A DNA stretch of 64,000 nucleotides. Origin: Paenibacillus polymyxa (GTDB lineage Bacteria; Bacillota; Bacilli; Paenibacillales; Paenibacillaceae). A model generated the notes under the pieces. The model saw nothing but the letters and a program-made list of their open reading frames with translations. It was not told where the DNA came from and did no database searches. The stretch spans positions 1,302,001-1,366,000 of the forward strand of contig NZ_CP015423.1 in NCBI RefSeq assembly GCF_001719045.1, written 5' to 3'. Positions 1 to 15,850 of this stretch are shown one piece after another. Each line of letters begins with the position of its first letter. The stretch's first letter is position 1. The translations under genes were made by a program, and so were the position numbers.

Positions 1-134
1 GCCGGAGACGGTACCCAATCCCCTAAGGTCCGAATCACAAGCCAGATCAATCCAATTATTAAAAATACAAACCATACAATAAGGCTATCGATGATATAAG
101 CCAAAGTTCGTTTCCAAAAACCTGCATACAGCAC
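1..134 (-). CDS. RDD family membrane protein (5' part only)
   Basis: Only the first 44 or so codons are inside the window; the gene continues past the left edge. Translation from the GTG at 134 begins MLYAGFWKRTLAYIIDSLIV and continues into a hydrophobic helix. The aromatic-Gly-x-Trp-x-Arg...Asp opening followed by a membrane helix is the hallmark of RDD-family proteins, small integral membrane proteins of mostly unknown transport role. A GGAGGGG ribosome binding site lies five bases upstream. It is the last visible gene of the minus-strand train that starts near 12.3 kb, 62 bases after the Hsp70-like gene, so it is probably co-transcribed and may be a membrane partner of that system. Confidence 0.72.
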   Translation of the reverse strand, partial: MLYAGFWKRTLAYIIDSLIVWFVFLIIGLIWLVIRTLGDWVPSP

Positions 135-196
135 GTTATCCCCTCCAAATGTTGTGTACTTTTCTGATTTCAGCATTTTGCGAAATCCTTAATTTA

Positions 197-2848
197 CTAT
201 TTCGTGCCGTCAAAGAAATCCAGCTCGGAGAGATCATTTTCGAAAGCAAAAAAGCGTTTGGGTCCCAGATGCAGCAATTCATCTCGGCGGGTAATCGGGA
301 CTACATAAAAGCCCCAGCGGCTATCTCCGACAAAAACAAAATATTTCGTTTCCCCATTACGGATGGAGTCCGTATCATCCTGCGGGATATCCCGCCCGTA
401 CAGCACGGCAATTTCCTCATACGGCATGGGTTCAAAAGCTTCTGGCCGACTACGGTACACATGACGCTGACGCAGCTTGCCGCCGTCGGCCGTCAGGAAG
501 AACTCTACCTCAGCCGCATGAGACGGCCGGGAAATAGAACCGCGTACCCGGTTGCTTTCCAAATTCGCAATCAGCTCTTTCTCGCGTCCCGTATGTGTCC
601 ATGCGCTGACCGTGTACGGAATAGCCGGAATATGATTGGTAATGACAGGCTCAATCGTGCCCATTTTTTTAGCGTTCAGGTAACGGATAGCCCCGCGCAG
701 ACAGGCCATTTTCAACTCAGGTACCCGGCTGAGGTCCTCTGCCTTTTGACGGAACTCAATACTGCGCCCTGGTACAAATTCCTTGAGTGCTTCGCGAAAT
801 ACGTCAATCCGGCAGGACTGCCCAGTTAGCTTGATAATCGAATAATCCTGCAAGCGCCCCTCCAGATAAAACTCATCCAGAAACTTGCGCACAATATTGT
901 AGATGTCTGCCTTAAGAAGCTGCTGTATCTCCCGAATGTTAAACACCACATCAGGCAACCCATATTCATCACGAAACCGTCCGTTCTCGATGACTGATAC
1001 TAGCCAACGATCCATCACTGCAATGTTCAGGTCGCTTTCAGCAGATAATACCTGCTCGGATTCGAAGCGGCTGCGCAAGATCCCCGTACGTAGAAAAAAT
1101 TCCTTTTTCATATTTTCTGCCGCGCTCCACAATAGATGAAAATTACTCAGTACCCGCTGATATTCATCCCGTGTAGCATGCTCATACTGTTTGAACGCGG
1201 TAGGCAAGATGGCCTCTGCCTCTCGGTAGCGCTCCTCCAGTCCCGCATATACAGCATCTACACCAAACTCATCCACATGACGGTACAAATCTCCTGAAGG
1301 AATACCGATCAGGGCATCAATATCGGTGTCAGGCAAACGAGTCTCGGCAGCATAATAACCTGCAAATACAATTTTCATAAACTGCATAATCCGATACGTC
1401 AGATTGTTTCCACCAAAATTGGTATCCCCATTTTCATACGTTGTGTGAATATCCAGCTTGTAAGCAATACGTCCGTCCTCAATTCGGAATCGGCAGGAAG
1501 ACAAATCTGTGGTGCCTCCACCACAATCAATGACAAGTGCCTGATACTCCTCACCGTCCGCAAAAGTCCCTCGTTCCATCTGGTCTGCCAGCGTGTTGTA
1601 CAGCACAGCCAGCCCTTCGTCCAGCGCATCCTCCGCTTCGATCTGGTAATCAGGCAAAATATCACTAAACATCTCTATAAACTGGGGCTGCAGCTTGACC
1701 GGAGCAGAAAAGTGCAGGTTGCGGAACCGACACTTAAATTGCTGCTCGGCTGTAGCAATCACATAACGGATAAAAGCAGCTAAAATATCACTGCGGGAAG
1801 CGGTTGCTGTATTCCCCTCGGAATCCATTAATTCCTCGATTCGCTTATAATCGTTGACCCACCGCTTGATCCCTCGCAATACTGTCGCACGGCTGCCTGC
1901 CACGTCAGATCCACGTAGTGCATCCTCCCCAAATACATAAAGGATATGTTCCGGATTGGAGCAGTCTGCGACGCGAATAGCAGTCGGCAATACTTCGATC
2001 CAGTCGCCCTCTGCCCCTTCTGGGCCGGGGAATGACACATAATTGATGGCGTTCAGCCTTACCGTGCTGCTCATACCTGTATCAGGGGCCGTAACGTAGG
2101 AACTATCCAAATAAGCACCTGCTGTGGTGTTCGAGGTGCCAAAATCAATCGCAAGTACCGCATCTGTAGTTTCAGTGCCCCGAATGATCAGCTCTGCCAC
2201 CGGAACCCGGTGACCTTGAAGCTTCAGCGGCAGCATTGGCTTATCTCCATAGTAGAGGTTATAGAAATATTCTGATTCCTGTCTTCGCAGAAATAATAGG
2301 CTATAACTATGATTAGACGTCTCTCGCAGTTCAGCATCACGATGACGAGAAAGATAATATACGCCTGTTCGCCCCTCATCCTTCACCAAATTCAAAACAC
2401 CGCCCAACTCTCCCATCGCATTCACCAGCAGCACATTAGATGAGCTCAGCCAAGGCAAATCGGATTCGATCCGGTAGTTGTCCATGCGACCTGTGCGTAC
2501 ACCCTGATACAGTGTGATTTTGGCGGGAACCCGGATACCGCTACTCTCCTGCCGACGGTCATTCCAATTTCGCTGTAGTGCCGATTCCATGCGTTCAAAA
2601 CCACCAGGATTCGGCCTTGTGATGAGTAAATGCTCTTCCGCACTCCGAAATCGCAAAATCACGCGAATCAATTCTTCACGTGCCAGGCGATTGGCAAATC
2701 CCTCGACCAGTCGTTCCTTATCGCATATCCCGCGTAACTGAAAGGTCGTCATTTGCTCCAATTCCGCCCGCGTGTATTTCGCCGTGAAGCGTATGCTTTT
2801 TCGATCGGTGAGCGGGTCTAGCAACCTGTATGTATAGGGTCCGTTCAT
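197..2848 (-). CDS. Large Hsp70/actin-fold ATPase with novel N-terminal extension
   Basis: 883 residues. The first 230 residues match no Hsp70 region I know; residues 27-65 have a helix-turn-helix look reminiscent of a SAP motif. The ATPase begins at about residue 233 with the phosphate-1 loop AIDFGTSNTT, followed by the phosphate-2 loop IDCGGGTTDLSS and a late adenosine-type motif (KLTGQSCRIDVF). The fold is therefore Hsp70/actin-like, but the usual DnaK substrate-binding domain is not recognisable, and the C-terminal 150 residues are beta-rich and unassigned. It lies 31 bases after the 231-aa gene in the same train, which also encodes a J-domain protein, a natural co-chaperone. No grpE is present. 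I infer a dedicated chaperone or assembly ATPase for this cluster; the client is unknown. Confidence 0.8.
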   Translation of the reverse strand: MNGPYTYRLLDPLTDRKSIRFTAKYTRAELEQMTTFQLRGICDKERLVEGFANRLAREELIRVILRFRSAEEHLLITRPNPGGFERMESALQRNWNDRRQESSGIRVPAKITLYQGVRTGRMDNYRIESDLPWLSSSNVLLVNAMGELGGVLNLVKDEGRTGVYYLSRHRDAELRETSNHSYSLLFLRRQESEYFYNLYYGDKPMLPLKLQGHRVPVAELIIRGTETTDAVLAIDFGTSNTTAGAYLDSSYVTAPDTGMSSTVRLNAINYVSFPGPEGAEGDWIEVLPTAIRVADCSNPEHILYVFGEDALRGSDVAGSRATVLRGIKRWVNDYKRIEELMDSEGNTATASRSDILAAFIRYVIATAEQQFKCRFRNLHFSAPVKLQPQFIEMFSDILPDYQIEAEDALDEGLAVLYNTLADQMERGTFADGEEYQALVIDCGGGTTDLSSCRFRIEDGRIAYKLDIHTTYENGDTNFGGNNLTYRIMQFMKIVFAGYYAAETRLPDTDIDALIGIPSGDLYRHVDEFGVDAVYAGLEERYREAEAILPTAFKQYEHATRDEYQRVLSNFHLLWSAAENMKKEFFLRTGILRSRFESEQVLSAESDLNIAVMDRWLVSVIENGRFRDEYGLPDVVFNIREIQQLLKADIYNIVRKFLDEFYLEGRLQDYSIIKLTGQSCRIDVFREALKEFVPGRSIEFRQKAEDLSRVPELKMACLRGAIRYLNAKKMGTIEPVITNHIPAIPYTVSAWTHTGREKELIANLESNRVRGSISRPSHAAEVEFFLTADGGKLRQRHVYRSRPEAFEPMPYEEIAVLYGRDIPQDDTDSIRNGETKYFVFVGDSRWGFYVVPITRRDELLHLGPKRFFAFENDLSELDFFDGTK

Positions 2849-2879
2849 CGTTCACATGTCCTTTCTTAGCCATTTAGCC

Positions 2880-3575
2880 TTAATAGAGGGCGATAGCGTC
2901 TATTTTCATCGTAGGATCTTCCTCTAAAATGCCGAAATGACTTGTCCAATACAATTCCGTCGTAAAACGTGCCGGAAGAAACAAATCCAGAATCAAATCC
3001 ACTTTAATCCGTGACAATGGCGTCTCCTCTTGGCCGATATAGATGAGTAATTCGTCTTTTTCCTCACAATTGGTGTAAATGATTGAGCGATGAAAGACGC
3101 GCCGCATCGTTTCTTTTAGCAGATGTACGGCTTCTCCCGTCTCATACAGGCGCAGTAATCCTTCAGCAATCGCGTCCTGATCCTCACGGTTTAATTGTCC
3201 AAAGCCTTCCTTTACCTTCGGGCCAAAAATGCCCTCTGCAATATCACGCCGAACAAACCGGATATGGTACTCCCGCCGATTCATCCCTTGATACAAGTCC
3301 ATTTCCGCCAGAAAATGCATCATAATATCAAATAGCGATTCTCTCAGCTCCAGATACTCTTCAGCATCCGGTGGAAACAGATCCCGAAAAATAGAATAAA
3401 AGCGGTAGTACGGATTGATTTCCACTACCTGCTCCAAATGGGAAGTATTCAACTCTGCCAGACTAAGCTCCATATACGGAGAGTAGCTGACAGCGGGTAC
3501 GAAGCGGAATTTATCTACATCCAGCCCCTGTTCCCTCGCGCGCATGAGCAAATCCCAGACGTAATTCACACCCAT
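2880..3575 (-). CDS. Uncharacterised protein, 231 aa, of the FHA/PP2C/Hsp70 cluster
   Basis: A soluble, acidic, mostly helical protein with no signal peptide or membrane segment. It carries several aromatic-rich stretches (such as YYRFYSIFRDLF) and ends in a beta-rich segment with TTELYWTSHFG. Its ATG overlaps the stop of the preceding 439-aa gene by ten bases, so the two are translationally coupled and probably form a complex. I do not recognise a family. In a contractile-injection reading of this cluster it would be a candidate baseplate component together with the 439-aa protein, but that rests on context only. Confidence 0.7.
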   Translation of the reverse strand: MGVNYVWDLLMRAREQGLDVDKFRFVPAVSYSPYMELSLAELNTSHLEQVVEINPYYRFYSIFRDLFPPDAEEYLELRESLFDIMMHFLAEMDLYQGMNRREYHIRFVRRDIAEGIFGPKVKEGFGQLNREDQDAIAEGLLRLYETGEAVHLLKETMRRVFHRSIIYTNCEEKDELLIYIGQEETPLSRIKVDLILDLFLPARFTTELYWTSHFGILEEDPTMKIDAIALY

Positions 3576-4885
3576 TCTCCTTCACACTTGTACTCTGGAA
3601 AATACATCTGCACTTCCGATACCAGAAAGCTCATTAAATCGGATAAAATATAAGCAGGCGCGGTTGGCGAAACATCGTCAGAACCACGTCTGAACCCCAA
3701 ACGCATGGTCTGCTTGCCTTCCTCTGTCCGTACGTTATCGCTGACAAACGGATTTAACGGATACGTCTGGGTTTTGGTTACAAGGTTGCTTACATCATTT
3801 CTCCCTGCACCTCCCCAGATGTCCACACGTTCCAGCTCCAGCCCCTGCGCTGCTTCAAACGAGTTTACGATGCGCATGATTTCCGCTTTGGCACGGACAA
3901 TCACGGCCTGTTTTCCTGCATAGCGGCCCAAAAAGCTGTCCTGTCGCCGATTAGACAATAACGGATAAGTCTGACGACTAAGTCTCGTTGTAACAGGCTT
4001 CGTAACCTTCAACACATTCCATTCGCCAGATTTATCACGTGGTGTGACAATCGTCAGTTCCTCTTCTGTACGCTTGATATACCGGATATCGCCTTCAGTC
4101 CCGTCAATCAAGTAACCATGCTCAGGACCTGTTTTTCGCAAAGGCAGCACATGCTCATAGTTCACACGATCCATAGCGGGTATAGGAAAACCGCTGTTCT
4201 TTAGAGATAGCCTTTCAATGTTCCAAAGCGGAAAAACGTCGCCCTTCTTAAAAACGTCGAATTCCTCCAATGAAATTGTAATTTCATGAATTTCTTCATG
4301 GGCGGCCGGCTCGCCGTCTCCACCAATCAATACACAGTCCACAAACTTATAAGCGTACGGGTGATTAATTGTTTTCCATGGCATACCATTTTGCATAAAC
4401 GTGTGATATAACTGCTCAATTTCCAAAATATAAGAACGGTTATGCTCCAGACGAAAACGAATCGGATAATTGCCGGTTTCCGTGACCAACATTCCTGAGA
4501 AAATTCGCTTGCTGCGCACCAGCGCTGAGATACGTTCGGTCTCCATCTCAAGAAAAAGCGTAAACAGCGGCATCGCACCGCCTTCGCGTACCACCTCTGC
4601 CACACGGCTGATGTCCATCTGCTTTTCCTCCGTATCAGACGGTAACACAGGATATAAAAATTCATGAATTGGGTCATAGTCCTCACGCGATGTCAATGAC
4701 ACGTACACATCAATCTTTTCTTCCGTATTCTCAATTTCCTCAAATACCCGCCGTTCTAGCTGGCGGGTCATTTCTTCCTGATATTCGACGAGGTTCATAA
4801 ATACCCCCGCCATCATATTTTTCAGTAAACGTCTCTGCTCTAAATCGTCCATCTTGCTCAAACGGTCCTGTACCAGCTCTTTCAC
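3566..4885 (-). CDS. Uncharacterised protein, 439 aa, of the FHA/PP2C/Hsp70 cluster
   Basis: GTG start with AAAGGAG ribosome binding site 11 bases upstream. The N-terminal 50 residues are helical and charged (an MKELVQDRLSKMDDLEQRR opening); the rest is mixed alpha/beta with no membrane segment. Late in the protein a segment KTQTYPLNPFVSDN is followed by a helical C-terminus. I cannot place it in a family. It directly follows the PP2C-like membrane protein and overlaps the next gene, so the pair is likely to act together. Its length is near that of T6SS TssK, but I see no sequence motif supporting that identity. Confidence 0.7.
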   Translation of the reverse strand: MKELVQDRLSKMDDLEQRRLLKNMMAGVFMNLVEYQEEMTRQLERRVFEEIENTEEKIDVYVSLTSREDYDPIHEFLYPVLPSDTEEKQMDISRVAEVVREGGAMPLFTLFLEMETERISALVRSKRIFSGMLVTETGNYPIRFRLEHNRSYILEIEQLYHTFMQNGMPWKTINHPYAYKFVDCVLIGGDGEPAAHEEIHEITISLEEFDVFKKGDVFPLWNIERLSLKNSGFPIPAMDRVNYEHVLPLRKTGPEHGYLIDGTEGDIRYIKRTEEELTIVTPRDKSGEWNVLKVTKPVTTRLSRQTYPLLSNRRQDSFLGRYAGKQAVIVRAKAEIMRIVNSFEAAQGLELERVDIWGGAGRNDVSNLVTKTQTYPLNPFVSDNVRTEEGKQTMRLGFRRGSDDVSPTAPAYILSDLMSFLVSEVQMYFPEYKCEGEWV

Positions 4886-4932
4886 GACGTCTCACTCCTT
4901 TCCGGCTCCAGCATTCATTGAACATGAAAAAC

Positions 4933-6810
4933 TTAACCTCCGTTCGCAGCAGCCCGATCTTGGTTCTCTGAATCAGACGCCCCTGCTGCTTTAGAAGCGG
5001 AATCAGCAGTTCCTTGCTCTTTGTTGGTATCCACCTTGGCCGAAGGGGCAGTTCCATCGCCTGTACCACTGCTCTTTGCAGCCGAAGAGGCTTCCTTCTT
5101 CGCGGGTGTAGTTCCCGCTGAAGCCGTTGGCGCAGCCTTCGTTTGCGATTCTGCAGCAGGGGTTGCAGCAGCGGAAGATGAAGCTTCACTCGCTGTGTCC
5201 CCTGCGTCCGTGTCGTTCAACGCTCCGTCAGACAATCCCAATCCAGCAGGAAGCTGACCATTTTTCTGCTGTTCCGCGCTCTGCTTTTCCTCCGCCTTGG
5301 CAATGCTCCGTTCCAATGCCAGAACACTTTCGAGCTTATCAATCTCCTGATAAATTTCCTGTGCCCCGCTATAGGCATCAATGGCTCCTTCATAATCGAG
5401 ATCCTTCATCATCCGATCCCCTTTGGCCTGAAGTTTTCCAGCTTGAATCTCCTTGAGCTGCTGCTGAATAGCTGTCAATTTATCGTTGGCCTCGGTAATT
5501 TTCTTCTCCAGTTCTTTTTGCGCGGACGTATAACCGGATTCCATCGCAGCCTTGTTTGCTTTCTTGTATAGCTTAAGCGCATTCGTGTAATCGCCGCCCT
5601 GAAATTTTAAATCTCCGTCCTTCATCCAGCTCGCTGTCTCGGCATAGCTGTCCAATTGATCGATTTTATGCTCAATATCCTTCACATTAAACGGTGGATA
5701 TAGCCCGGCGCTTTTCCGTGCTTTCTCGTAGCTGGCTTCAGCTTTGGTAAAGTCCGCCTTTTCCACGTAGCCGTCTCCGTCCACCAGCAATTGAGATAGT
5801 TTCTGCTCGGCTGTATACAGTCGCTTATGAATCTTATCGTTAATTTTAACCGCCGCGTTTTTCGCTTCGCTGTAGGACTTGAGCGCCTTCGCATAATCTC
5901 CTGTCCTTGCATAATCGTCTGCGGCTTGGGCTGATTCGATCATCGTTTCCAGTGCAGCTGCCTTATTCGCAGCCATACGAGCCAGCGTAATCCATGCTCC
6001 CCCGCCCACAACAATAAAAACAAGCAAAGCAAGCAAAATCCGTTTGATCAACTTGCGGCGGTTTTTAGGCTTTTCCTGAAAAACTTTATTTACATAAATG
6101 GCCGCAGCCGTGTAATTATTCACCGTCCGATGCTGTTTGCTTAGCAGAACCTCTTCCAAGGTGTCCGTCAGCATGACCGGGTGCTTCGCTTCCTCCAGCG
6201 CCCCCAGCATTTCCGCCAGCTCAACATCCTCCCACATCCCTGAGGTGGCAAGCAGGATTACATCTCCATCTGCAAGCTGCGTCTTTTTGGCGTAATGGGC
6301 ATGAACTCCATTCGGATTTCCCAAGTATTCCAGCAGATTACCTCGTTCCTCATGTGTGCTGGTCGCTTCGTCTGGAATGCGTCCATCATCTGCCAATGAC
6401 TGAGCCAGACTATGATCCTTACTGCGAAAATTAAGCCTTCCATTGCGAAAATGATATAGCCGCACATTACCGCACGAAACATACACCATTTTGTTATAGT
6501 TGGTCACTACCATCAGCAGACTGGCTTTGAGCCGAACACGACGGCTTTCAAATTGCAGCCATTCCTGCGCTTCACGCAGATCTCTCATCAAGCGCCGTTT
6601 GGACATGGAAGGCTTCTCCATGAAGTTTTCCAGCACCGTTTTGACAACCATTTCTGCGCTGCGCAGCTCCTGATCCGAATCCAGACCGTCTGCGAGGACA
6701 TAACAGGCCATGTCGTCCGTCTCCATGAATGCAAAATAGTCCCGGTTGTCTATGTAAGAGCCCGCTTCCGACACAAAGGCGGTACTAAAATCGCTGTTGT
6801 CCTTGCGCAT
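4933..6810 (-). CDS. Membrane PP2C-like protein with degenerate metal site and cytoplasm-distal helical repeat region
   Basis: 625 residues. Residues 1-240 have the PP2C layout: an N-terminal Asp in DNRDYFAF, ADG at the second metal motif, then LATSGMWE where active enzymes have SDG, and VNNYTAAAI where they have DN. Two of the metal-ligand Asp are therefore replaced by Ser and Asn, so this is probably a pseudophosphatase. A single membrane helix lies at about 258-277, followed by a helical, TPR-like repeat region (about 285-490) and a 110-residue Ala/Ser/Thr-rich tail with low complexity. In the train it follows the intact PP2C gene by 22 bases. It may sense or scaffold phosphorylated partners across the membrane. 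Confidence 0.75.
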   Translation of the reverse strand: MRKDNSDFSTAFVSEAGSYIDNRDYFAFMETDDMACYVLADGLDSDQELRSAEMVVKTVLENFMEKPSMSKRRLMRDLREAQEWLQFESRRVRLKASLLMVVTNYNKMVYVSCGNVRLYHFRNGRLNFRSKDHSLAQSLADDGRIPDEATSTHEERGNLLEYLGNPNGVHAHYAKKTQLADGDVILLATSGMWEDVELAEMLGALEEAKHPVMLTDTLEEVLLSKQHRTVNNYTAAAIYVNKVFQEKPKNRRKLIKRILLALLVFIVVGGGAWITLARMAANKAAALETMIESAQAADDYARTGDYAKALKSYSEAKNAAVKINDKIHKRLYTAEQKLSQLLVDGDGYVEKADFTKAEASYEKARKSAGLYPPFNVKDIEHKIDQLDSYAETASWMKDGDLKFQGGDYTNALKLYKKANKAAMESGYTSAQKELEKKITEANDKLTAIQQQLKEIQAGKLQAKGDRMMKDLDYEGAIDAYSGAQEIYQEIDKLESVLALERSIAKAEEKQSAEQQKNGQLPAGLGLSDGALNDTDAGDTASEASSSAAATPAAESQTKAAPTASAGTTPAKKEASSAAKSSGTGDGTAPSAKVDTNKEQGTADSASKAAGASDSENQDRAAANGG

Positions 6811-6832
6811 CGCTACCCCCGTCTTTCTTGTT

Positions 6833-7663
6833 TCATCCTATCGCCAAAATAAGTACTGTCGCATTATCCTGACTTTTAAAGCCTTTATCATCAATGGCGT
6901 CGATCATGGCATCCGCTGTTTCCTGCGGTGTTCCACCCTTGCGCATAATCTCTTCCAATTCAATCTCCGTCAGCGCCTCCTGAATGCCATCGCTGCACAG
7001 CAGCACATGATCGCCTGAATACAAACGAATCGGTGCATTACCCATTTCCATGCTCTCAAAGCCCTCATAGCCCAAGTAGTTGACCAGTTGATTGCGCACT
7101 GGACTCGTTTTGGCTTCCTCCGAGGTCATTTGTCCAGCAAGCACTCGTTCCTCCAGCAGTGTTTCTGCTGTATGCTTGGAATTGACTGTCTGGAAATGAC
7201 CATTGCGGTAAATCGTAATCAAGCTGTCGCCCACCGCTCCGTAATACAGCTGATAGCCGCACACAATGACCGCAGCCAGCGTCGTTCCTCCGCCCTGTCC
7301 GTTCAAATTTTGCAAAATGCCGCGATTGCTTTGAGTTGCCGCCTCTGTAAAATATCCATTCAAATTCGTTGCATCTTCCAGCTTGGCAAACGCCTTCGTA
7401 AAAGTAGTCACAGCCAAGGTACTGGACATACGCCCATTGGCCAGCCCACTAATACCGTCTGCGACAACAGCCAGCGTACCGACAGGTGTCGTCATACTGG
7501 AGAAATAATCATCCTGCTCGCTCCGGCTCCCGATCGTTTGACCATTTCCGATCTCAATTCCACTCACGGTACGGCTGCCGGAACTTCGCGTCAGTCGTAT
7601 ACGGATCATAAGCAGAACAGCGAATAGTACCGCAGCTCCACTTACAACAAAATAAGGCTGCAT
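6833..7663 (-). CDS. Membrane-anchored PP2C-type Ser/Thr protein phosphatase
   Basis: 276 residues from the ATG at 7663, chosen because GGGAGGT lies six bases upstream; a longer reading from 7684 would swallow that site. An N-terminal membrane helix (about 6-25) is followed by a complete PP2C domain: RSEQDDYF, VVADGISG, LLCSDGIQEAL and SQDNATVLIL supply all the Asp residues that bind the two Mn/Mg ions. It should dephosphorylate Ser/Thr-phosphorylated proteins in the cytoplasm. Logical opponents are the soluble kinase at 14939-15850 and phospho-targets read by the two FHA proteins just upstream in the same transcript. Comparable to PppA of type VI secretion loci, or the PP2C of TerY-P triads. 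Confidence 0.9.
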   Translation of the reverse strand: MQPYFVVSGAAVLFAVLLMIRIRLTRSSGSRTVSGIEIGNGQTIGSRSEQDDYFSSMTTPVGTLAVVADGISGLANGRMSSTLAVTTFTKAFAKLEDATNLNGYFTEAATQSNRGILQNLNGQGGGTTLAAVIVCGYQLYYGAVGDSLITIYRNGHFQTVNSKHTAETLLEERVLAGQMTSEEAKTSPVRNQLVNYLGYEGFESMEMGNAPIRLYSGDHVLLCSDGIQEALTEIELEEIMRKGGTPQETADAMIDAIDDKGFKSQDNATVLILAIG

Positions 7664-7698
7664 ATCGTTACCTCCCTGCACCATTGCCCAATTCCGTC

Positions 7699-8226
7699 CT
7701 AGTTTTCGTTATCCCACTCAAAATGGGCGCCACACAGCGGGATAAAGATAAATTTGCTGTGTCCCAGCTGAATCACGTCATAGGCAGCCAGCTCTGCTGG
7801 TGAATATACCGCCTCGTTATTGTGGTACGCCAAACCTGATGAATCGCCTGGCAACAAGTAAAAGTTACGTTTCTTCGGATCATACACAATGACCGCATGA
7901 TTTCTACGGGAAATCGTGTTGTCCCCGATAATGCGGACATGCATTTCCTCTGCGCGCCCGATAAAGTTTTTCTCCGCCATAATGCGATAATCCTGACCCA
8001 CCTGTGCTCCTTCGATGCATACCAGCCATCCGGTTACCGGATGAATGCCCACCGTCTCGCCCAAATACGGCATTGTTTTGTCGTTATCTCCTGCGACGTT
8101 TGTTTTCGCCACTGGCTCTGCGCTCTTGGGTGCAGCTACATTTACTACCGTATTGCAATAAGGACACGTATTTCCGTGCTTTCGTGTACTGAACATGTGT
8201 CCGTTCGGGCATCTTGTCAAACTCAT
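7699..8226 (-). CDS. Zinc-ribbon FHA-domain protein
   Basis: 175 residues. The N-terminus has a zinc ribbon with Cys6, His10, Cys21 and Cys24 (CPNGH and CPYC knuckles). A linker follows with NDKTMPYLGE, where Thr51 sits in a spot resembling the phospho-acceptor Thr ahead of the FHA domain in GarA/Fha-type proteins. The FHA domain spans about 62-165 with the core signature FIGRAEEMHV...ISRRNHA, the phosphothreonine-binding Arg/Ser/Arg-Asn-His set. Ribosome binding site GGAAGGA precedes the ATG. It lies 35 bases before the PP2C gene in the train. I infer a phospho-switched adaptor that binds itself or a partner. Confidence 0.88.
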   Translation of the reverse strand: MSLTRCPNGHMFSTRKHGNTCPYCNTVVNVAAPKSAEPVAKTNVAGDNDKTMPYLGETVGIHPVTGWLVCIEGAQVGQDYRIMAEKNFIGRAEEMHVRIIGDNTISRRNHAVIVYDPKKRNFYLLPGDSSGLAYHNNEAVYSPAELAAYDVIQLGHSKFIFIPLCGAHFEWDNEN

Positions 8227-8294
8227 AGTCGGTTCCTTCCCCCATTGTCATGATTGTCTTTTCAAGCGATCTGAGGATTTTGCAGCATCCTCAT

Positions 8295-8843
8295 CTATTT
8301 AACGAGCAGTCTCGTATTGGCAATATATAATAAATCACCTGAGTAAATCCGGTATGGCTCACCGCTTTCCAACTTCTTGGTTACACTTTCGTTAGCAGAC
8401 CGCAAGCCTGTACCATTACCGGAATCCACATCCTCCACAAACCAGTCGCTGTTCACCCGGTTGAGCACCGCATGCTCCACACTTACCAGGGAGGCATAAT
8501 CTGTACCTACCAAATCAATATCCGCCTCCGAACGTGACGTTGTTTTACCGATTAATAGCGACGTTTCGCCTTCGATATACCATTCTTTAATGGACTCGCC
8601 CTCTTCATCAATCAACACCAGCTTGGCAATCCGCTGACGCTGTGCCTTTGGCTTAGCCACAGGTACAACGGACACCAGATTACGCAGTATGTATACAAGC
8701 ACGCCGATTCCAATACCTATCGCGACCACGGTTTTCAAACCGCTGTAGCCTGTACGATTAAACACATAAAAGGCGATCGCCAGCATCAGCCCGAACATGG
8801 CAACATCTATGATGAAAACCCATCTGTTCTGCGCCGTTTTCAC
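8295..8843 (-). CDS. Membrane-bound FHA-domain protein
   Basis: 182 residues from a GTG with GGGGGAA upstream. Two membrane helices (about 10-28 and 36-54) form a hairpin, so both ends face the cytoplasm. A C-terminal FHA domain (about 90-182) contains SLLIGKTTSRSEADIDL, then VSVEHAVLNR and a DVDSGNGTGL loop typical of FHA folds. It would recruit phosphothreonine proteins to the membrane. Together with the zinc-ribbon FHA protein, the PP2C enzymes and the kinase it completes a phospho-signalling set inside one gene cluster. Confidence 0.87.
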   Translation of the reverse strand: MKTAQNRWVFIIDVAMFGLMLAIAFYVFNRTGYSGLKTVVAIGIGIGVLVYILRNLVSVVPVAKPKAQRQRIAKLVLIDEEGESIKEWYIEGETSLLIGKTTSRSEADIDLVGTDYASLVSVEHAVLNRVNSDWFVEDVDSGNGTGLRSANESVTKKLESGEPYRIYSGDLLYIANTRLLVK

Positions 8844-8875
8844 TGCTTGCTTCCCCCATTTCTATCCTGAAATCA

Positions 8876-9390
<515 letters not shown>

Positions 9391-9455
9391 CCACCCTGCA
9401 CTTGTGTGCCGGATGAGTGTGTGTTTAAGCTGCACTTAACGTGAAGACGTTAAGC

Positions 9456-9881
9456 TTAAACCGGATATCCGCCGTCGATTGTAGCCAGCTCGGTTTTGTC
9501 TTTCTTTTGTTTGATGTAGAGTGTAAATGCACCTACACCTTCTGTGTCGCCGAAGTGCTCGTTGTAGTCTACAACGAAAGCATTCGGGAAGTGGATTTTA
9601 CGCACAACTTGATCAGCTGCGATAACTTCCAGTGTTACTTTACGGTAGCTGTCTGCTTTTTCAGCAGGAACCAGAGACCACAAAGCCAGTTTCAGCGTGT
9701 CATCCGCGCTGTCACCGTCTACGGCTGTGATGATTTTACCGCTGATGCGCAGCGTGGAGCCTACGTCAGTGGAGCGTGCATTGGAATCGTCCGGTGTATC
9801 GGTGTCATAAATAACCGTTTGGATGTTATCCAAGCCCAGCTCGATTGTTTCTTGTCCTTCTACTTTCAATCTGAATCCCAT
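9456..9881 (-). CDS. Hcp/tail-tube-like protein (putative)
   Basis: 141 residues from the ATG at 9881, chosen because AAGGAGG lies seven to eight bases upstream; the open frame extends to 10004 but that stretch has no ribosome binding site and an unrelated composition. The protein is almost all beta strand, with no signal peptide or membrane helix. The pattern of strands, the segment FPNAFVVDYNEHFGD and the closing strand GAFTLYIKQKK resemble Hcp and phage tail-tube proteins, which are 140-170 residues. That is a visual fold guess, not a family match. It follows the 752-aa gene by 119 bases and is itself followed by a strong terminator, as expected for an abundant structural protein. Confidence 0.55.
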   Translation of the reverse strand: MGFRLKVEGQETIELGLDNIQTVIYDTDTPDDSNARSTDVGSTLRISGKIITAVDGDSADDTLKLALWSLVPAEKADSYRKVTLEVIAADQVVRKIHFPNAFVVDYNEHFGDTEGVGAFTLYIKQKKDKTELATIDGGYPV

Positions 9882-10000
9882 GTGTGTTGCCTCCTTGAAA
9901 TTAGGTAATATGATGGCGGGAGATGCAAAGCTTCTCCGCGATTTATGTATAAAGGCGGTTCTGGATAGAAACGCCTCTAACATCTTTCGTAGTGCTCGGA

Positions 10001-12259
10001 TCATGATTTGACCGAGCTGGTTCCCTTAGTGATCATGACTTCCAGGTTCTTCACATTACCGTTGAAGACCAGATCGATATGGCACATATTGCTTTTCTCA
10101 TCAATAATGAAGCTCATATCGTCTCCATCCTGAATGATCGAGTTAACAGATCCTCTGCTGCTCAGCCACTTGCTCTTCTGACTGCTCGGATTGTTACTGA
10201 AGAAGCGGACGATATTTTCGTGTTTGAAGTCCCCTGTCTGGTAGCGTAAAATACGTTCAATGTACGTGCTGACCAGCGTCTTGTAGATGGAGTCAAAACC
10301 GTCCTCGGACATCGCCATGCTTCTCGCCTTGTAGACGGTAATCCGGCGGATATCCTTATCCTGGATCTGAGCATTCTCCGACGAGAATACAAAGCCGAAG
10401 TTTTTACGGTTGATGGCATCCTTGATCGTGTTGGTGAATCCGGTGATTTCCTTGGCCATCGTCGTTACCGTGCGCAGGCTGTTGTCTCCGGCTTCAATGT
10501 CGAAGCGTACGCCAGGGAAGTTTTTATTGACCGTTTTGAACGTCTCACGCAAGTACTCAGGACACTGATAGGAAGCGACCAAGCCAGCAGCAACGTAGGC
10601 TGCACCTACATAAACACCCTCGATCCACAGCTTGAGAATATCCTCTTTCTCCTTAGAGAGCTGTACACCGTCTTCGGTCTGTAGCATTTTGCTGTCGATA
10701 ATGACACCCGATTTGTCCTTCGGAATAATCGTAAAGTTCGGTACGCAAGGAATGGCAAATTCGCTATATTCTCTGCGAACGAGACTGGCGCATTTATCGA
10801 CATATTTGTCGATGCCTGCTGTCGCCATACTGTTGAAAGTCGTTTCTTCACCGGATTCAAAGTTAAAGAACATTTGAATTTTGTAATCCTTCACGACTTG
10901 CAGCAGCATCGAGAGCGATTCCATAGAATTTCCGCCCTGCTTAACGACCTTCTCGTTGCCCTTGAAGCGTTCACGTGAAACCTTTACCTTACCGGCTGCT
11001 TCCAGCTCGACGGATGGAACGATACCGAACCAGATCGTGTCGCTGAATTCATTCTTAGCATTCACAGTGTTCAGGTACGTTTCCAGGCGCGGGATATTGC
11101 TGCTTTTCACCAGCATGTCCAGCTTGTTGTTCGCCACCAGCATTGTCGGCAGCATGCCTTTGCTCTTCGTTGCATATTGATCGAAGAACATTTTGACACC
11201 GAGGATTTTCTCCACAAGCGGCTTAACCGCCTTTACGAAATCGTCCTTGGCATTTTTATAGAACTCCAGATACGTGTTGTAGTTTTGAACTTCAACCGCT
11301 GTATCCACCTTGGTCTGAACAGCTGGCAGTGGCACAAATGTGCGAACCACCAAATCCTTCACATAGTCAGAAGGCGTATCTGTGATGGAGTTATAATCCT
11401 CTTCGAATACTTGGGAGAGATCGCCAGTGCTGTTTTCATCCAACAGCATCAGCTCAGTGCTGTCGCTCTTCGGCGCTTCAATAATTTTCAGTTCGCCGCT
11501 TTCCCCAATGGAGAGCATACCCACCTGGATCAGTTCACCGGAGTTTTCCTCTTGGGCGCCACCGAGCAGAAGGCGGGTTTTGATGTCCTCAATTGCCAGT
11601 GGGAGCATAGCCATAACGTTGTTATAGTTCTGACTCGCTTCCTCGAACATTCCATTCAGCTTGTCACCCATGTCGAGTTTCTTCGGATCGCCATCATCCA
11701 GCTTGTCGTATTCACCGTACATATAGTGAATCTCTTTGCGGACTTGACGAATATCATCCATAACCTTTTTCGGTGAAATCATATCCAGCAGATTTTCAAA
11801 TTTGAAATCTACATTGGTGATTCCTTGACTGCGCTTGGTATCAATGAGCGTAAACAACATTTTCAGAAAATCATTACTTTGATTTACACGAATTTCAGAA
11901 ATGCTATCCTCATCAATTCCCTCTGGCTTTTTAAGGGTGTAGACGACTTTTTGATTGGCCGCGTTAAAAAACGAATACACGGTCGGTGAAAACTTATCCA
12001 AAAATTCGTCAAAGCTGCGCACCAGAAGGTGCTGATTAATTTCCTTGATCTTCTCATCGCTCAAGCTGTCAATACCCTTCACATCACCTACAATGGTGAT
12101 CAGGTCCAGCTTTTCCGGGTTAATCTCTTCAAAAAGCATTGTCCGGTTGGTTTGATAAATGATTTCCATCGCTGTCGGCAAATGAACAAAGTATGAGTTA
12201 TAGGTCCATTGCTCCATATACGGACATGGGATGTCCAATTTGAAACGGACGAAACTCAT
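10001..12259 (-). CDS. Large uncharacterised protein, possible contractile-sheath-like component
   Basis: 752 residues from the ATG at 12259 (GGAGGAGG about 14 bases upstream); an in-frame ATG at 12295 lies upstream of that ribosome binding site and is less likely. Soluble, with no membrane helix. Residues 70-110 (RSFDEFLDKFSPTVYSFF) faintly recall the TssB region of type VI sheaths. The segment GVYVGAAYVAAGLVASYQ and a C-terminal alpha/beta region recall the conserved C-terminal part of sheath proteins. I see no decisive motif. Being first in the operon, directly ahead of a tube-like gene, fits a sheath (TssB/TssC or gp18-like) but a different role is possible. An alternative reading is a large scaffold protein for the phospho-signalling genes downstream. 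Confidence 0.6.
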   Translation of the reverse strand: MSFVRFKLDIPCPYMEQWTYNSYFVHLPTAMEIIYQTNRTMLFEEINPEKLDLITIVGDVKGIDSLSDEKIKEINQHLLVRSFDEFLDKFSPTVYSFFNAANQKVVYTLKKPEGIDEDSISEIRVNQSNDFLKMLFTLIDTKRSQGITNVDFKFENLLDMISPKKVMDDIRQVRKEIHYMYGEYDKLDDGDPKKLDMGDKLNGMFEEASQNYNNVMAMLPLAIEDIKTRLLLGGAQEENSGELIQVGMLSIGESGELKIIEAPKSDSTELMLLDENSTGDLSQVFEEDYNSITDTPSDYVKDLVVRTFVPLPAVQTKVDTAVEVQNYNTYLEFYKNAKDDFVKAVKPLVEKILGVKMFFDQYATKSKGMLPTMLVANNKLDMLVKSSNIPRLETYLNTVNAKNEFSDTIWFGIVPSVELEAAGKVKVSRERFKGNEKVVKQGGNSMESLSMLLQVVKDYKIQMFFNFESGEETTFNSMATAGIDKYVDKCASLVRREYSEFAIPCVPNFTIIPKDKSGVIIDSKMLQTEDGVQLSKEKEDILKLWIEGVYVGAAYVAAGLVASYQCPEYLRETFKTVNKNFPGVRFDIEAGDNSLRTVTTMAKEITGFTNTIKDAINRKNFGFVFSSENAQIQDKDIRRITVYKARSMAMSEDGFDSIYKTLVSTYIERILRYQTGDFKHENIVRFFSNNPSSQKSKWLSSRGSVNSIIQDGDDMSFIIDEKSNMCHIDLVFNGNVKNLEVMITKGTSSVKS

Positions 12260-12807
12260 TTTTAGTTCTTTTGCCTCCTCCCCCCTACTTAACATTTAAA
12301 TTCGTCAAAGGATTGAGCTTATACCACATTTAAGGTACAGGCATGTAACCTCGAAAATCGGTCCGAAGCGTTATTCGGCTTTTAACGGCAAAGCATGCAA
12401 ATGAGATGTATTTCCAAAATCAAAAGTCAGATAACACAGAAATTTTAAATTTATGATTTCGTATTCCTAACTTCAATCCCAATTTTTGCCGTTGATACGA
12501 GAGCTATCATACAAAGCACCCTTCAGTTTTGTCAATTTCTGTAGTCTCAGATTGAAACAGGGCATTTTGACTCATTTTATGCGTGAATACGTAATTTTCA
12601 TGATATGTTAGACCTGTTTCTTCAGGGAAATATTCACAAATGGAACTCAATTACCGATAGAAGTCCATTGGATATTTCTGATAAGCGTAAAAGAATCAAA
12701 TTCATGGCTAATGTGAGGGTTATCAGCTGTTTTGATCCTTTATCCCTTATATCCCAAGGATTAGGAGAGCTGATCCCCCCACGTTGGCCTCGGCGATGGA
12801 GGAGCTT
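12260..12807. other. Divergent intergenic region between the 752-aa gene and the VWA gene
   Basis: About 550 AT-rich bases without a supported gene. It holds the minus-strand promoter at 12506-12535, giving a leader of roughly 240 bases ahead of the 752-aa gene, and must hold a promoter for the VWA gene, for which I see no convincing pair of hexamers. The long leader contains no riboswitch that I recognise. Confidence 0.6.
12506..12535 (-). promoter_or_regulatory. Sigma-A-like promoter of the 752-aa/tube-like operon
   Basis: On the minus strand a perfect TTGACA (12535-12530) is followed after 18 bases by TATGAT (12511-12506), placing the start near 12499 and leaving a leader of about 240 bases before the ATG at 12259. 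Confidence 0.6.
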
Positions 12808-14895
12808 ATGTTCAGAATAAGGAAACTAGGGATTATCGTTTTCATGACTTTTGTACTATTTTTACAAATGAGCCTAAACGGGGTCATTTGCACTGTAAAT
12901 CAGGCTAATGCAGCATCTTTAGGTGCTGTCCCGATCGAGGGTTACGATGCCGTTTTTGTACTGGATACCAGTTATTCCATGAGGGATACCGATCCTGAAG
13001 GCATTGCGGCCGAAGTCATCAATATGTTTATGGATTTGAGTGATGCAGACCGTACGCGCGTCGGATTCGTTGCCTACAATCACCATGTGGTCGCCTCGAA
13101 ACCACTAACTTCGATTGCCGTGGCAGCGCAAAAATCCCAGATCCAACAGGAAATCAGAACGCTAAATCGTTCCGGTTATACGGATTTGGGACTTGGGCTG
13201 CGCAAAGGCTCAGAGCTGCTAGCGGCAGGAGCATCCCAAGGGCGTCAGCCTTTTATGATTCTGTTGTCTGATGGAGAGACTGATTTTGGTGCCTCCTCTG
13301 GTTCCCGATCCAAAGGTGACTCCAATAACGATGTGTCCTCTGTCATCAAATCTGCACAGACCAAGGGATATCCGGTGTACACAATTGGTCTGAACCATGA
13401 TGGCACAGTGAACCGACAAGAACTCGAACGGATCGCTTCTCAAACGGGTGGAGCTTCTTTTATTACGAGTAGTGCCGAGGATCTGCCGGAAATTCTGAAC
13501 CGTATTTTCGCCAGTCAAATTCGTTCCAAGCTCGTCCCAATTGCTGCAATTACGACTACTGGCGAGATGCAAGAATTAACTGTAACTCTACCTGATTCTA
13601 GTATGGAGGAAGCCAATTTGGTGCTTTTGTCGGAGCATCCCCTTCTGGAAACACAGCTATATTCCAATTCAGAAAATGTCCGCAGGTACAAGTCGAGCCG
13701 CTATGCGATTTTAAAAATCGAGCATCCACAGGCAGGTAAAGTGAAGTTGAAGCTACGGGGCATACGCGGGGATTTGGTGAAAATCAATTTACTTGGCAGC
13801 TATCGACTGGAAGCCGAAGCTACCATGGGAGCAAAGCAAGCAACGGCAACTCATGGCGACAAGCCTGTGCAGTTGCTGAAAGGTCAAGCGACACCGTTTC
13901 AAGCTCAGCTTCTGTTGCCGAACAATCAAAAGCTTACAGATGAAGCCGTATATACGTCTCTCCAAGCCCATATTGTAGTTACTCCCAAGGGGGGCACAGC
14001 CAAAAAGGTGCCTATGACCTATAAGTCAGGAGCCTTTCATACCGAATATGCGTTCCCTCAAACCGGGGATTATACATGGCAGCTATCTCTGGATAGTCCG
14101 CAATGGTACCGTAAGGGAATTGTACATAAGGTTCACGCGGCCAATGCAGCACCACAGGTCTTAAAAGACCTGACGATTCACCTGGTAAAAGAAGACGGCG
14201 ATTCCCGTCGAAGTTTATCAGATTTTATTGTTGACCCCAATCATGACAAGCTGAACTATAAGCTGGATTCAGAAGTCGCTGGGGATACGGTCCATGCTGA
14301 GATTAACGGTAATGATCTGCTGCTATCCGAGCTCCACACAGGTGACTCTCAGCTGAAGATTAAAGCTACCGATCCGGAAGGAGCATCCAGCAGCGCTACA
14401 CTAACCGTTTCTGTACAATCCCGGTATACAGCCATTAAATGGACGGTAGCCATCAGTGTCGTAGTAGCCGCTCTTCTGTATTGGTTCTTGCGGCCGAAGC
14501 CGCAGTTTGCCGGAAGAATTGAAGGATATTTTCTCGCTACAGCAAGTGGACAGGAGATTCCGGTAAAATCTTGGCCGCTCACCTCCTTTCCGGGCCGTAA
14601 GGTCAGCTTGCAGGAATTGTTCCGTACGCTTGACGTTCACGAACCGTTGCCAGAAGCGGAACGGATCGTATTTTCCGCAGGTAAAAAAGGGAGCCTAATC
14701 GTAAAACATGATACACGCTGTGCCTTACAGCATGGAAAGGTCAGATTAGCCCGCAACAAAAAAGCGGTCATGGAGTACAGTGACAAACTGTACATTACAT
14801 TCGAGGATGGTGTCACTGAAATCGAGCTGCGATACAAAGCGATTAAACCGAATACTTCAGTGTACACCGACCATATCCAAGCTCCGACAGGATAA
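12808..14895 (+). CDS. Membrane-anchored von Willebrand factor A (VWA) protein
   Basis: 695 residues from the ATG at 12808, chosen because GGAGGAG lies directly upstream; an in-frame TTG at 12784 is less likely. A signal peptide or anchor occupies the first 36 residues (basic start, hydrophobic core, ANAA). The VWA domain follows with the metal-binding MIDAS motif DTSYS in VFVLDTSYSMRD. The middle is beta-rich with cadherin- or Ig-like character (DPEGASSSATLTVSV), then a membrane helix at about 541-561 and a 130-residue, beta-rich cytoplasmic domain. The large part is thus outside, and the tail inside, where it could meet FHA proteins or the kinase. Convergent with the kinase gene and divergent from the structural-type operon, completing a TerY-P-like set (VWA, PP2C, kinase). 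Confidence 0.82.
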   Translation: MFRIRKLGIIVFMTFVLFLQMSLNGVICTVNQANAASLGAVPIEGYDAVFVLDTSYSMRDTDPEGIAAEVINMFMDLSDADRTRVGFVAYNHHVVASKPLTSIAVAAQKSQIQQEIRTLNRSGYTDLGLGLRKGSELLAAGASQGRQPFMILLSDGETDFGASSGSRSKGDSNNDVSSVIKSAQTKGYPVYTIGLNHDGTVNRQELERIASQTGGASFITSSAEDLPEILNRIFASQIRSKLVPIAAITTTGEMQELTVTLPDSSMEEANLVLLSEHPLLETQLYSNSENVRRYKSSRYAILKIEHPQAGKVKLKLRGIRGDLVKINLLGSYRLEAEATMGAKQATATHGDKPVQLLKGQATPFQAQLLLPNNQKLTDEAVYTSLQAHIVVTPKGGTAKKVPMTYKSGAFHTEYAFPQTGDYTWQLSLDSPQWYRKGIVHKVHAANAAPQVLKDLTIHLVKEDGDSRRSLSDFIVDPNHDKLNYKLDSEVAGDTVHAEINGNDLLLSELHTGDSQLKIKATDPEGASSSATLTVSVQSRYTAIKWTVAISVVVAALLYWFLRPKPQFAGRIEGYFLATASGQEIPVKSWPLTSFPGRKVSLQELFRTLDVHEPLPEAERIVFSAGKKGSLIVKHDTRCALQHGKVRLARNKKAVMEYSDKLYITFEDGVTEIELRYKAIKPNTSVYTDHIQAPTG

Positions 14896-14910
14896 TGTCC
14901 GTCACAACGT

Positions 14911-14975
14911 AAAAAAAGAGAAGCGCCGTCTCTTACGATTAATGAACCGTAAGAGTAGGGCGCTTCCCTTTTTTT
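14911..14975. terminator. Bidirectional terminator between VWA and kinase genes
   Basis: Arms around AAGCGCC..TCTTACG (14920-14937) and CGTAAGAG..GGCGCTT (14948-14964) pair, with A7 on the left and T7 on the right, so it can stop transcripts from both convergent genes. The right arm lies within the last codons of the kinase gene. Confidence 0.8.
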
Positions 14976-15850
14976 ATCCAATATTCCGCACGTAGTGCGG
15001 CTTTAAACCATCGAAGTGAACGGCAACGCTTGTTAGCCTGTACCTCCAGACCACGCCGAATGACATACGGCAGCAGAGAAAGTCCCGCATTTTCAATCTG
15101 AATCCGCTCAGAATGATCTGCAAACAATCGGCCTGGCACATCTGGCGGAGGTGTTCCTTTTCGGCAATAATACAGCGTGGCGGCCAAACTATAGATATCC
15201 GACACAGGCCCCTGCTGCGAACGATTAGAGTAAAATTCCAGCGGAGAATAGCCCGCCGTAGTAAAGATCGGATGCTCTTTGCCTTCAAAATGCACAGCCG
15301 AACCAAAATCAATCAGCTTGATGTTGCCATTTTCCCCAATCATAATGTTGCCCGGCTTAATATCCCGGTGAATAATTCCTTTGTCGTGAATGTACTCCAT
15401 GGCATCAATTAAAGGTAGCACCGTGTGGTACAAAAAAGTGGGATCAGATGTTGGCACAGCTTCTTCTTTCATCATTCGATCCAATGTCTTGCCTGCACAG
15501 TATTCCATGACCAGATAGGCTGTTCCATTTTCCTCAAAGTGATCTATATAACCGACAATTCCCGGATGACTTAACTCCTTCAACATTTGCCCTTCACGCA
15601 AAAAATAATGCATAAACTCCACGTATTTGGATTGCATAGAAGTACCGCAAGTGACCGTTTTTCGATCCATCCCTCGCAAAGCCAGGGCATTCGGAAAAAA
15701 TTCCTTCACAATGACCTTTTCTCGGTTATCCAACAGCCTTGCCGTATACACGATGGCCAGCTCACTGCGGGACAAGGCGCTTCGAATTTGATATGTATTT
15801 CGCAGCTTCGTATTGCGGGCAAGCAGATTCCCGCTTGTATCCACGATCAT
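14939..15850 (-). CDS. Soluble Ser/Thr protein kinase of the cluster
   Basis: 303 residues, one kinase domain and no membrane helix or PASTA repeats. Catalytic elements are intact: Lys in VIVKEFFP, HRDIKPGN, IDFGSA and the SDIYSLAATLYY helix. The nucleotide-binding glycine-rich loop is degenerate, reading ALSRSELAIVY where GxGxxG is usual. The VKEFFP form of the lysine motif is common in bacterial kinases that sit beside VWA and PP2C genes. A GACAGGAGG ribosome binding site precedes the ATG, and a TATAAT at 15923-15918 may be its -10. Its substrates are probably the Thr-rich partners of the two FHA proteins encoded across the VWA gene. Confidence 0.9.
   Translation of the reverse strand: MIVDTSGNLLARNTKLRNTYQIRSALSRSELAIVYTARLLDNREKVIVKEFFPNALALRGMDRKTVTCGTSMQSKYVEFMHYFLREGQMLKELSHPGIVGYIDHFEENGTAYLVMEYCAGKTLDRMMKEEAVPTSDPTFLYHTVLPLIDAMEYIHDKGIIHRDIKPGNIMIGENGNIKLIDFGSAVHFEGKEHPIFTTAGYSPLEFYSNRSQQGPVSDIYSLAATLYYCRKGTPPPDVPGRLFADHSERIQIENAGLSLLPYVIRRGLEVQANKRCRSLRWFKAALRAEYWIKKGKRPTLTVH

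Follow-up and report, generated by a model that had tools for sequence, protein, structure and literature searches.

What kind of machine is encoded by bacterial genes that combine structural-type proteins with a full set of phospho-signaling and chaperone proteins? Such a locus occupies the first 15.9 kb of the window analyzed here, a stretch of 64,000 nucleotides (nt) from Paenibacillus polymyxa (positions 1302001 to 1366000 of a 5.76-Mb single-contig genome). A preliminary description of the window had proposed a Gram-positive relative of the type VI secretion system (T6SS), or another machine controlled in the same way. From fold and family evidence for a tube, a sheath, a spike, and a tip, we conclude with a probability of roughly 0.87 that the product of the locus is a Gram-positive machine for contractile injection. 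The identities of the sheath, tube, spike, and cargo are well supported; the wiring of the system and the role of its Hsp70-like protein are put forward as hypotheses. As far as we could find, this is a real, widespread, and so far undescribed variant of the contractile injection system, and no description of the cluster was found among the open-access papers listed for it.

Sheath and tube

The product of the gene at 10001 to 12259, a protein of 752 amino acids (aa) in the preliminary description, had been guessed to be a sheath, and its fold model bears this out. In a comparison with the PDB, the model matched chains of 44 contractile-tail entries ahead of any other fold, and the top three Foldseek matches were T6SS sheath entries (E values of 2.2e-4 to 1.2e-3, probability 1.00), with low TM-scores for these matches (0.28 of the query). 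Residues 1 to 706 of the model align with one-chain sheaths and residues 289 to 705 with VipB. Searches that used sequence only did not reveal a sheath: Pfam, NCBIfam, and PHROGs returned nothing useful for this protein, no Pfam sheath family was among the matches of 31 family members at E <= 1, and PDB sequence and profile searches gave weak unrelated rows only. A match to TssG in 1 of the 31 members (E of 0.36) was judged stray and discounted. The closest named relatives of the gene are in Paenibacillus maysiensis (100% over the best segment) and P. ottowii (99%).

Homology of the 752-aa protein mostly begins near residue 31, which would give 722 aa from a start at 12169; the start at 12259 does have a good ribosome-binding site, and either may be the true one. 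We also compared the leaders of 80 sheath genes (the window and 79 other loci), using a simple motif rule for ribosome-binding sites. By this rule 31 of the 80 have no site adjoining the conserved sheath start. Of the 31, 15 have a strong site farther off, 55 to 119 nt upstream, followed at once by one arm of a hairpin whose partner arm ends 6 to 9 nt before the sheath start (GGCAAA and TTTGCC in the minus-strand leader of the window, 12169 to 12290). Eight of the 15 leaders belong to close relatives of the window, and the arrangement occurs in none of the 49 leaders with a near site. When leader halves were swapped between loci in 500 trials, the mean was 0.23 and the maximum 0.45, compared to 0.48 observed. 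The hairpin may bridge the ribosome-binding site to the sheath start, or the true start may be the one at 12259.

The guess of an Hcp-like tube for the 141-aa protein encoded next to the sheath was likewise supported, with 26 of 35 diverse family members matching TssD (PF17642) at E <= 0.1 (best value, 4.7e-5) and 3 of 35 matching T4 gp19 at the same threshold (best value, 0.024). The window protein on its own matches TssD with an E value of 8.5e-4, below the curated Pfam cut-off, and the tube profile found no match among PDB sequences.

Spike, tip, and cargo

The preliminary description had suggested a survey of gene neighborhoods, and this survey added VgrG, DUF4280, and toxin-immunity genes to the machine. 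The system continues for ∼8 kb past the left edge of the window, where the gene order is RDD, a 256-aa protein, a 205-aa protein, VgrG (474 aa), DUF4280 (140 aa), a VgrG-deaminase fusion (1161 aa), and Imm3. Both VgrG-like proteins match PF04717 above the cut-off and PF05954 below it, and the 140-aa protein matches DUF4280 with an E value of 1.2e-31. A passage of PMC5349215 proposes DUF4280 as a PAAR-like domain. The 1161-aa protein ends in a deaminase of the BURPS668_1122 family (Toxin-deaminase, E of 5.6e-32), and the gene directly after it encodes the Imm3 immunity protein (E of 4.6e-32).

Further VgrG-like copies occur in the genome (13 rows of matches, among which are fragments of a single frame). 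Among six fetched regions of the same genome (L174 to L179), several are satellite islands with VgrG, DUF4280, 205-aa-family, and toxin/immunity genes, whose cargo includes another VgrG-deaminase and a WHH nuclease with a SUKH immunity protein next to it, as well as an immunity protein of the CdiI_3 type. This toxin and immunity cargo points to antagonism between bacteria. A protein with NADase_transloc and F5_F8 type C domains adjoins one of the satellite VgrG genes. Elsewhere, in the phylum sample described below, DUF4280 lies within long frames of up to 1264 aa, which, judged by frame length only, suggests fused cargo.

Layout and conservation of the locus

All genes named in the preliminary description were found in place by open reading frame and domain checks, including that of the RDD protein, which spans the left window edge. 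The features are as follows.

10001..12259, minus strand: single-chain contractile sheath protein, 722 aa if started at 12169 (homology), 752 aa if started at 12259
9456..9881, minus strand: Hcp/TssD-like tail tube protein, 141 aa, one copy here (PF17642, below cut-off)
8876..9325, minus strand: J-domain co-chaperone (PF00226, E 7.8e-27; HPD kept)
8295..8843, minus strand: FHA protein, two predicted N-terminal membrane helices (PF00498, E 9.6e-8; hydropathy)
7699..8226, minus strand: FHA protein, N-terminal CxxC zinc-ribbon-like segment seen by eye (PF00498, E 8.4e-7)
6833..7684, minus strand: PP2C phosphatase, one predicted N-terminal membrane helix (PF13672, E 1.7e-15; hydropathy)
4933..6810, minus strand: PP2C-like putative pseudophosphatase, TPR-like C-terminal half (PF13672, E 1.8e-4; TPR families; none of these reaches its cut-off)
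3566..4885, minus strand: baseplate wedge candidate, TssF/gp6-like, 439 aa (structure model)
2880..3575, minus strand: second wedge candidate, 231 aa, TssG-like by position only (gene overlap and co-occurrence with the 439-aa gene)
197..2848, minus strand: divergent Hsp70-like ATPase, 883 aa, N-terminal domain of ∼230 aa (PF00012 in family members; motifs)
12784..14895, plus strand: VWA-domain membrane protein, intact metal ion-dependent adhesion site, divergently transcribed (PF00092, E 3.6e-22)
14939..15850, minus strand: Ser/Thr protein kinase (PF00069, E 2e-35)
1..176, minus strand: RDD membrane protein, 5' part in the window (whole gene, L097:13622-14176; PF06271, E 1.5e-23)

The ten genes from the sheath to the Hsp70-like ATPase form a train on the minus strand with intergenic gaps of -10 to 130 bp, accompanied by the divergent VWA gene and the kinase gene. 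This train is not a chance arrangement because the gaps are tight and the order is kept across Bacillota. We counted its genes in 73 loci that were picked by the sheath gene and had enough downstream sequence. Seven of the ten (sheath, tube, J-domain, two FHA, and two PP2C) occur in all 73, the 439-aa and 231-aa genes in 68, and the Hsp70-like gene in 67; 65 loci keep the ten genes collinear on a single strand. One sheath gene is present in 72 of the 73 loci, and the tube gene occurs in at least two copies in 22. Six loci in which at least one of the 439-aa, 231-aa, and Hsp70-like genes is out of view have a VgrG and/or a DUF4280 gene further downstream, and in one locus (L070) these three genes lie upstream in the opposite orientation, next to a VgrG gene.

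The machine genes and the tip gene also travel together. In a class sample of 151 genomes, 15 sheath-positive and 23 DUF4280-positive, DUF4280 was found in all 15 sheath genomes and in 8 of the 136 others (Fisher P of 2.7e-15, a value that overstates the significance since the genomes are related). In 14 of the 15 the DUF4280 gene lies on the same contig, 14.0 to 15.4 kb downstream of the sheath gene; in G066 the sheath gene sits at 1845 to 4007 of its own contig, on which there was no DUF4280 match. Among the 8 genomes listed for the genus of the window, 4 have both genes and 4 have neither. From the 15 sheath-positive genomes we fetched 13 regions (L147 to L159), and the 256-aa, 205-aa, VgrG, and DUF4280 families are present in all of them, in another order in L151. 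Most of these 13 loci carry two extra proteins between the VgrG and DUF4280 genes (e.g., L147:17216-18921), one of ∼370 to 480 aa with a C terminus that looks pentapeptide-like by eye and one of 170 to 230 aa. The main locus of the window is without these two spike-tip proteins, and genes of similar size and place occur in satellites L178 and L179.

A phylum sample of 398 genomes, which overlaps the class sample, contained 13 sheath-positive and 19 DUF4280-positive genomes, 12 of them with both, so that DUF4280 was found in 12 of 13 sheath-positive genomes and in 7 of 385 others. In 6 of the 12 (four also in the class sample) DUF4280 is 14.0 to 15.6 kb downstream of the sheath gene; of the other six, two have it within 6 kb on the other side, one ∼200 kb away, and three on other contigs of fragmented assemblies. 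The sole sheath-positive genome without DUF4280, G516, is a distant partial sheath match. It and G390, whose DUF4280 match is ∼4 kb away, gave distant partial matches with E values of 1.2e-31 and 6.1e-22, respectively, and suggest that more divergent versions of the system exist.

As a search for counterexamples, we took 20-kb stretches from 7 of the 8 DUF4280-only genomes (G128 was left out) and found no other family of the machine at E <= 1e-3. Proteins of ∼560 to 600, 680 to 770, and 750 aa recur in 6 of these 7 stretches (L140 to L146), a neighborhood suggestive of another kind of contractile or baseplate system. Judged by eye from the starts of the protein sequences, the neighbors in three of the stretches may be like those of phage baseplates or of extracellular contractile injection systems (eCIS).

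Relatives of the locus genes come from Paenibacillus, Brevibacillus, Lysinibacillus, Clostridium, and gut Lachnospiraceae and Oscillospiraceae. They often carry misleading names in databases: the sheath is listed as a "transcriptional regulator," the tube as "membrane-associated protease 1," and the wedge candidate as a "normocyte-binding protein."

Baseplate candidates

The best structural match of the 439-aa model is the TssK-TssF-TssG complex. The first 10 bp of the 231-aa gene lie within the end of the 439-aa gene, the two genes occur in the same 68 loci, and the 231-aa family has no consistent Pfam or PDB sequence match. For the 439-aa, 231-aa, and 256-aa families alike, Pfam scans gave scattered single-member matches only, and at E <= 10 none of their profiles matched a PDB sequence. 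We regard the 231-aa and 256-aa proteins as probable baseplate parts, with a wedge role suggested for them. To our eye the 256-aa protein resembles the N-terminal part of TssK, a likeness that is unsupported by any test and that we do not claim.

Signaling, membrane, and chaperone proteins

The domain calls of the preliminary description hold for every protein except the one at 4933 to 6810, which had been read as a second PP2C. Here the core aspartate of the second DG motif is missing in all 76 aligned sequences, and the protein is for this reason best read as a pseudophosphatase. It has one membrane helix predicted from hydropathy (258 to 276), and its TPR-like half probably lies outside the membrane. 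In the PP2C at 6833 to 7684, the core aspartates are kept in 78, 69, and 69 of 78 sequences. The kinase retains the catalytic-loop H, D, K, and N and the D and G of DFG in 58 of 58 sequences, and the VK lysine in 56 of 58, the remaining two being gaps. Both FHA proteins pass the Pfam cut-off, a whole-genome FHA search showing only the one at 8295 to 8843, and in the other the GR and NH motifs are each conserved in 66 of 66 aligned sequences. These intact catalytic motifs of the kinase and PP2C, together with the gene content, suggest phospho-control of the machine. Membrane anchoring is likewise suggested by the predicted segments of the pseudophosphatase, FHA, PP2C, and VWA proteins; the last of these has hydrophobic segments at 8 to 26 and 551 to 569 and keeps DxSxS in 52 of 52 sequences.

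Of the two chaperone-type proteins, the J protein has the H and P of HPD in 77 of 77 aligned sequences and the D in 76. PF00012 matches 7 of 11 members of the Hsp70-like family at E <= 0.1 (best value, 0.0031), the window protein falling below the cut-off, and the profile found no PDB sequence at E <= 0.01. The motifs DFGT, DCGGGTTDLS, and LTGQSC, which we take to be the phosphate and adenosine motifs, are invariant in the 11 members. Because these ATPase motifs and the HPD are conserved and no AAA+ gene was recognized in the locus, we propose that the Hsp70-J pair may stand in place of ClpV, the AAA+ ATPase that acts on recyclable T6SS sheaths.

Comparison with known systems and alternative explanations

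The likeness to T6SS extends to the sheath, the Hcp/TssD-like tube, the VgrG spike with its PAAR-like tip, the TssF-like wedge candidate, the VgrG-fused toxin with an adjacent immunity gene, the satellite VgrG islands, and the kinase, PP2C, and FHA genes in the locus. There are also differences. The sheath is a single 722-aa chain here and two proteins, TssB and TssC, in T6SS. TssE/gp25 (PF04965) gave no match in the genome at E <= 0.001, with matches in 2 of 14 control genomes; a divergent copy may exist. No AAA+ family that could represent ClpV was above the cut-off among the Pfam-scanned locus proteins, the rest of the genome not having been searched, and the scanned locus proteins had no Pfam match to TssJLM, the outer-membrane part of which is not expected in a Gram-positive bacterium. 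The locus adds the Hsp70-like ATPase, the J protein, and the PP2C pseudophosphatase with TPR, and its hosts are Gram positive. Since a two-protein sheath, gp25, a ClpV in the locus, and TssJLM were not found within the limits of the tools, the locus is T6SS-like and not a member of T6SS. The proposed Gram-positive relative of T6SS with similar control fits, with the qualifications that several defining T6SS parts went unrecognized and that the control is suggested by gene content only.

The one-chain sheath, tube, and VgrG-like hub are also those of eCIS such as Afp, PVC, and AlgoCIS, and a free or cytoplasmic particle of the eCIS or Streptomyces type, one that is not anchored to the cell but freed when the producer lyses or active within it, is an unlikely alternative. 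Along short stretches the 439-aa model also matches chains of eCIS baseplates. The shortness of the baseplate matches and the looser linkage between sheath and DUF4280 in the phylum sample slightly lowered the probability of our main reading, from 0.88. An eCIS catalog (PMC12923769) mentions Paenibacillus. However, eCIS carry several sheath genes, in contrast to the single one in nearly all loci here, and no Afp15-type AAA+ ATPase or tail fiber was recognized among the scanned locus proteins, nor gp25 by the genome-wide profile. The locus includes FHA, PP2C-like, and VWA proteins for which membrane helices are predicted, and we know of no kinase/FHA/PP2C/Hsp70 set in the Streptomyces contractile injection system. 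The VgrG-borne toxin with its immunity gene and the satellite VgrG islands are as in T6SS; according to passages of a 2012 review (PMC3482391), VgrG is never fused to the toxins of PVC-type systems, and Firmicutes are among the hosts of T6SS-type toxins.

Phage ancestry is common to sheath, tube, and VgrG, as would be expected for a domesticated or defective prophage tail (tailocin), but we consider this origin of the locus very improbable. Its order is fixed across Bacilli and Clostridia together with signaling and chaperone genes, DUF4280 keeps a near-constant distance from the sheath in the class sample, and none of 8 locus proteins matches a PHROGs family named tail or baseplate, with many weak matches to families of unknown function. 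It is scarcely credible that the phospho-signaling and chaperone genes form a separate conflict or cytoskeletal system to which the tube-like protein is incidental, even though other conflict systems bring together VWA, PP2C, kinase, and HSP70 genes, according to a passage of PMC7159879. The sheath model contradicts this explanation, the locus contains wedge-like and spike genes besides those for the sheath and tube, and the tube, J, FHA, and PP2C genes accompany the sheath in every one of the 73 loci, a count that covers loci picked by the sheath and not the converse.

A proposed model for the injector

We propose that a one-chain sheath surrounds an Hcp-type tube on a baseplate that would include the 439-aa TssF/gp6-like wedge and probably also the 231-aa and 256-aa proteins, and that the tube is tipped by the VgrG-like spike and the DUF4280 PAAR-like point. 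Contraction would drive the spike out of the cell with its VgrG-fused toxins (and DUF4280 fusions, as far as frame length indicates) and into a neighboring cell, and the gene next to VgrG-deaminase would supply the immunity protein. In T6SS, PpkA, PppA, and Fha exert control by threonine phosphorylation; by analogy with them, the kinase, PP2C phosphatase, and FHA proteins probably time assembly or firing. For a membrane anchor, the best candidates would be the TPR-bearing pseudophosphatase, the FHA protein with two helices, and the VWA protein. Folding, loading, or recycling of the sheath is probably the task of the J protein and the Hsp70-like ATPase.

At roughly even odds, we hold the further view that this is a distinct Bacillota class of cell-anchored injector and the machine behind the VgrG-DUF4280 toxins of Firmicutes, in which the part of ClpV in assembling or recycling the sheath falls to the J protein and an Hsp70-like ATPase dedicated to the system. 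In this view a pseudophosphatase derived from PP2C, its TPR arm extracellular, would serve as a Gram-positive membrane and wall anchor under kinase/phosphatase/FHA control.

Passages of PMC8651086 describe pairs of Phage_GPD and PAAR_H2 (DUF4280) in Firmicutes without conserved T6SS or eCIS genes beside them and speculate on a delivery machine, and those of PMC5349215 raise the same possibility from DUF4280 alone in Gram-positive bacteria; these passages name no sheath, tube, or signaling cluster. Here the same VgrG-like and DUF4280 pair stands beside machine genes, and for pairs whose delivery machine those passages left open the cluster offers a sheath and a tube as well as a wedge candidate and genes for control. 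T6SS-like weaponry would extend to the genera and gut families listed above, and the locus raises the question of whether Hsp70 machinery can take on the task that falls to AAA+ ATPases where other sheaths are recycled.

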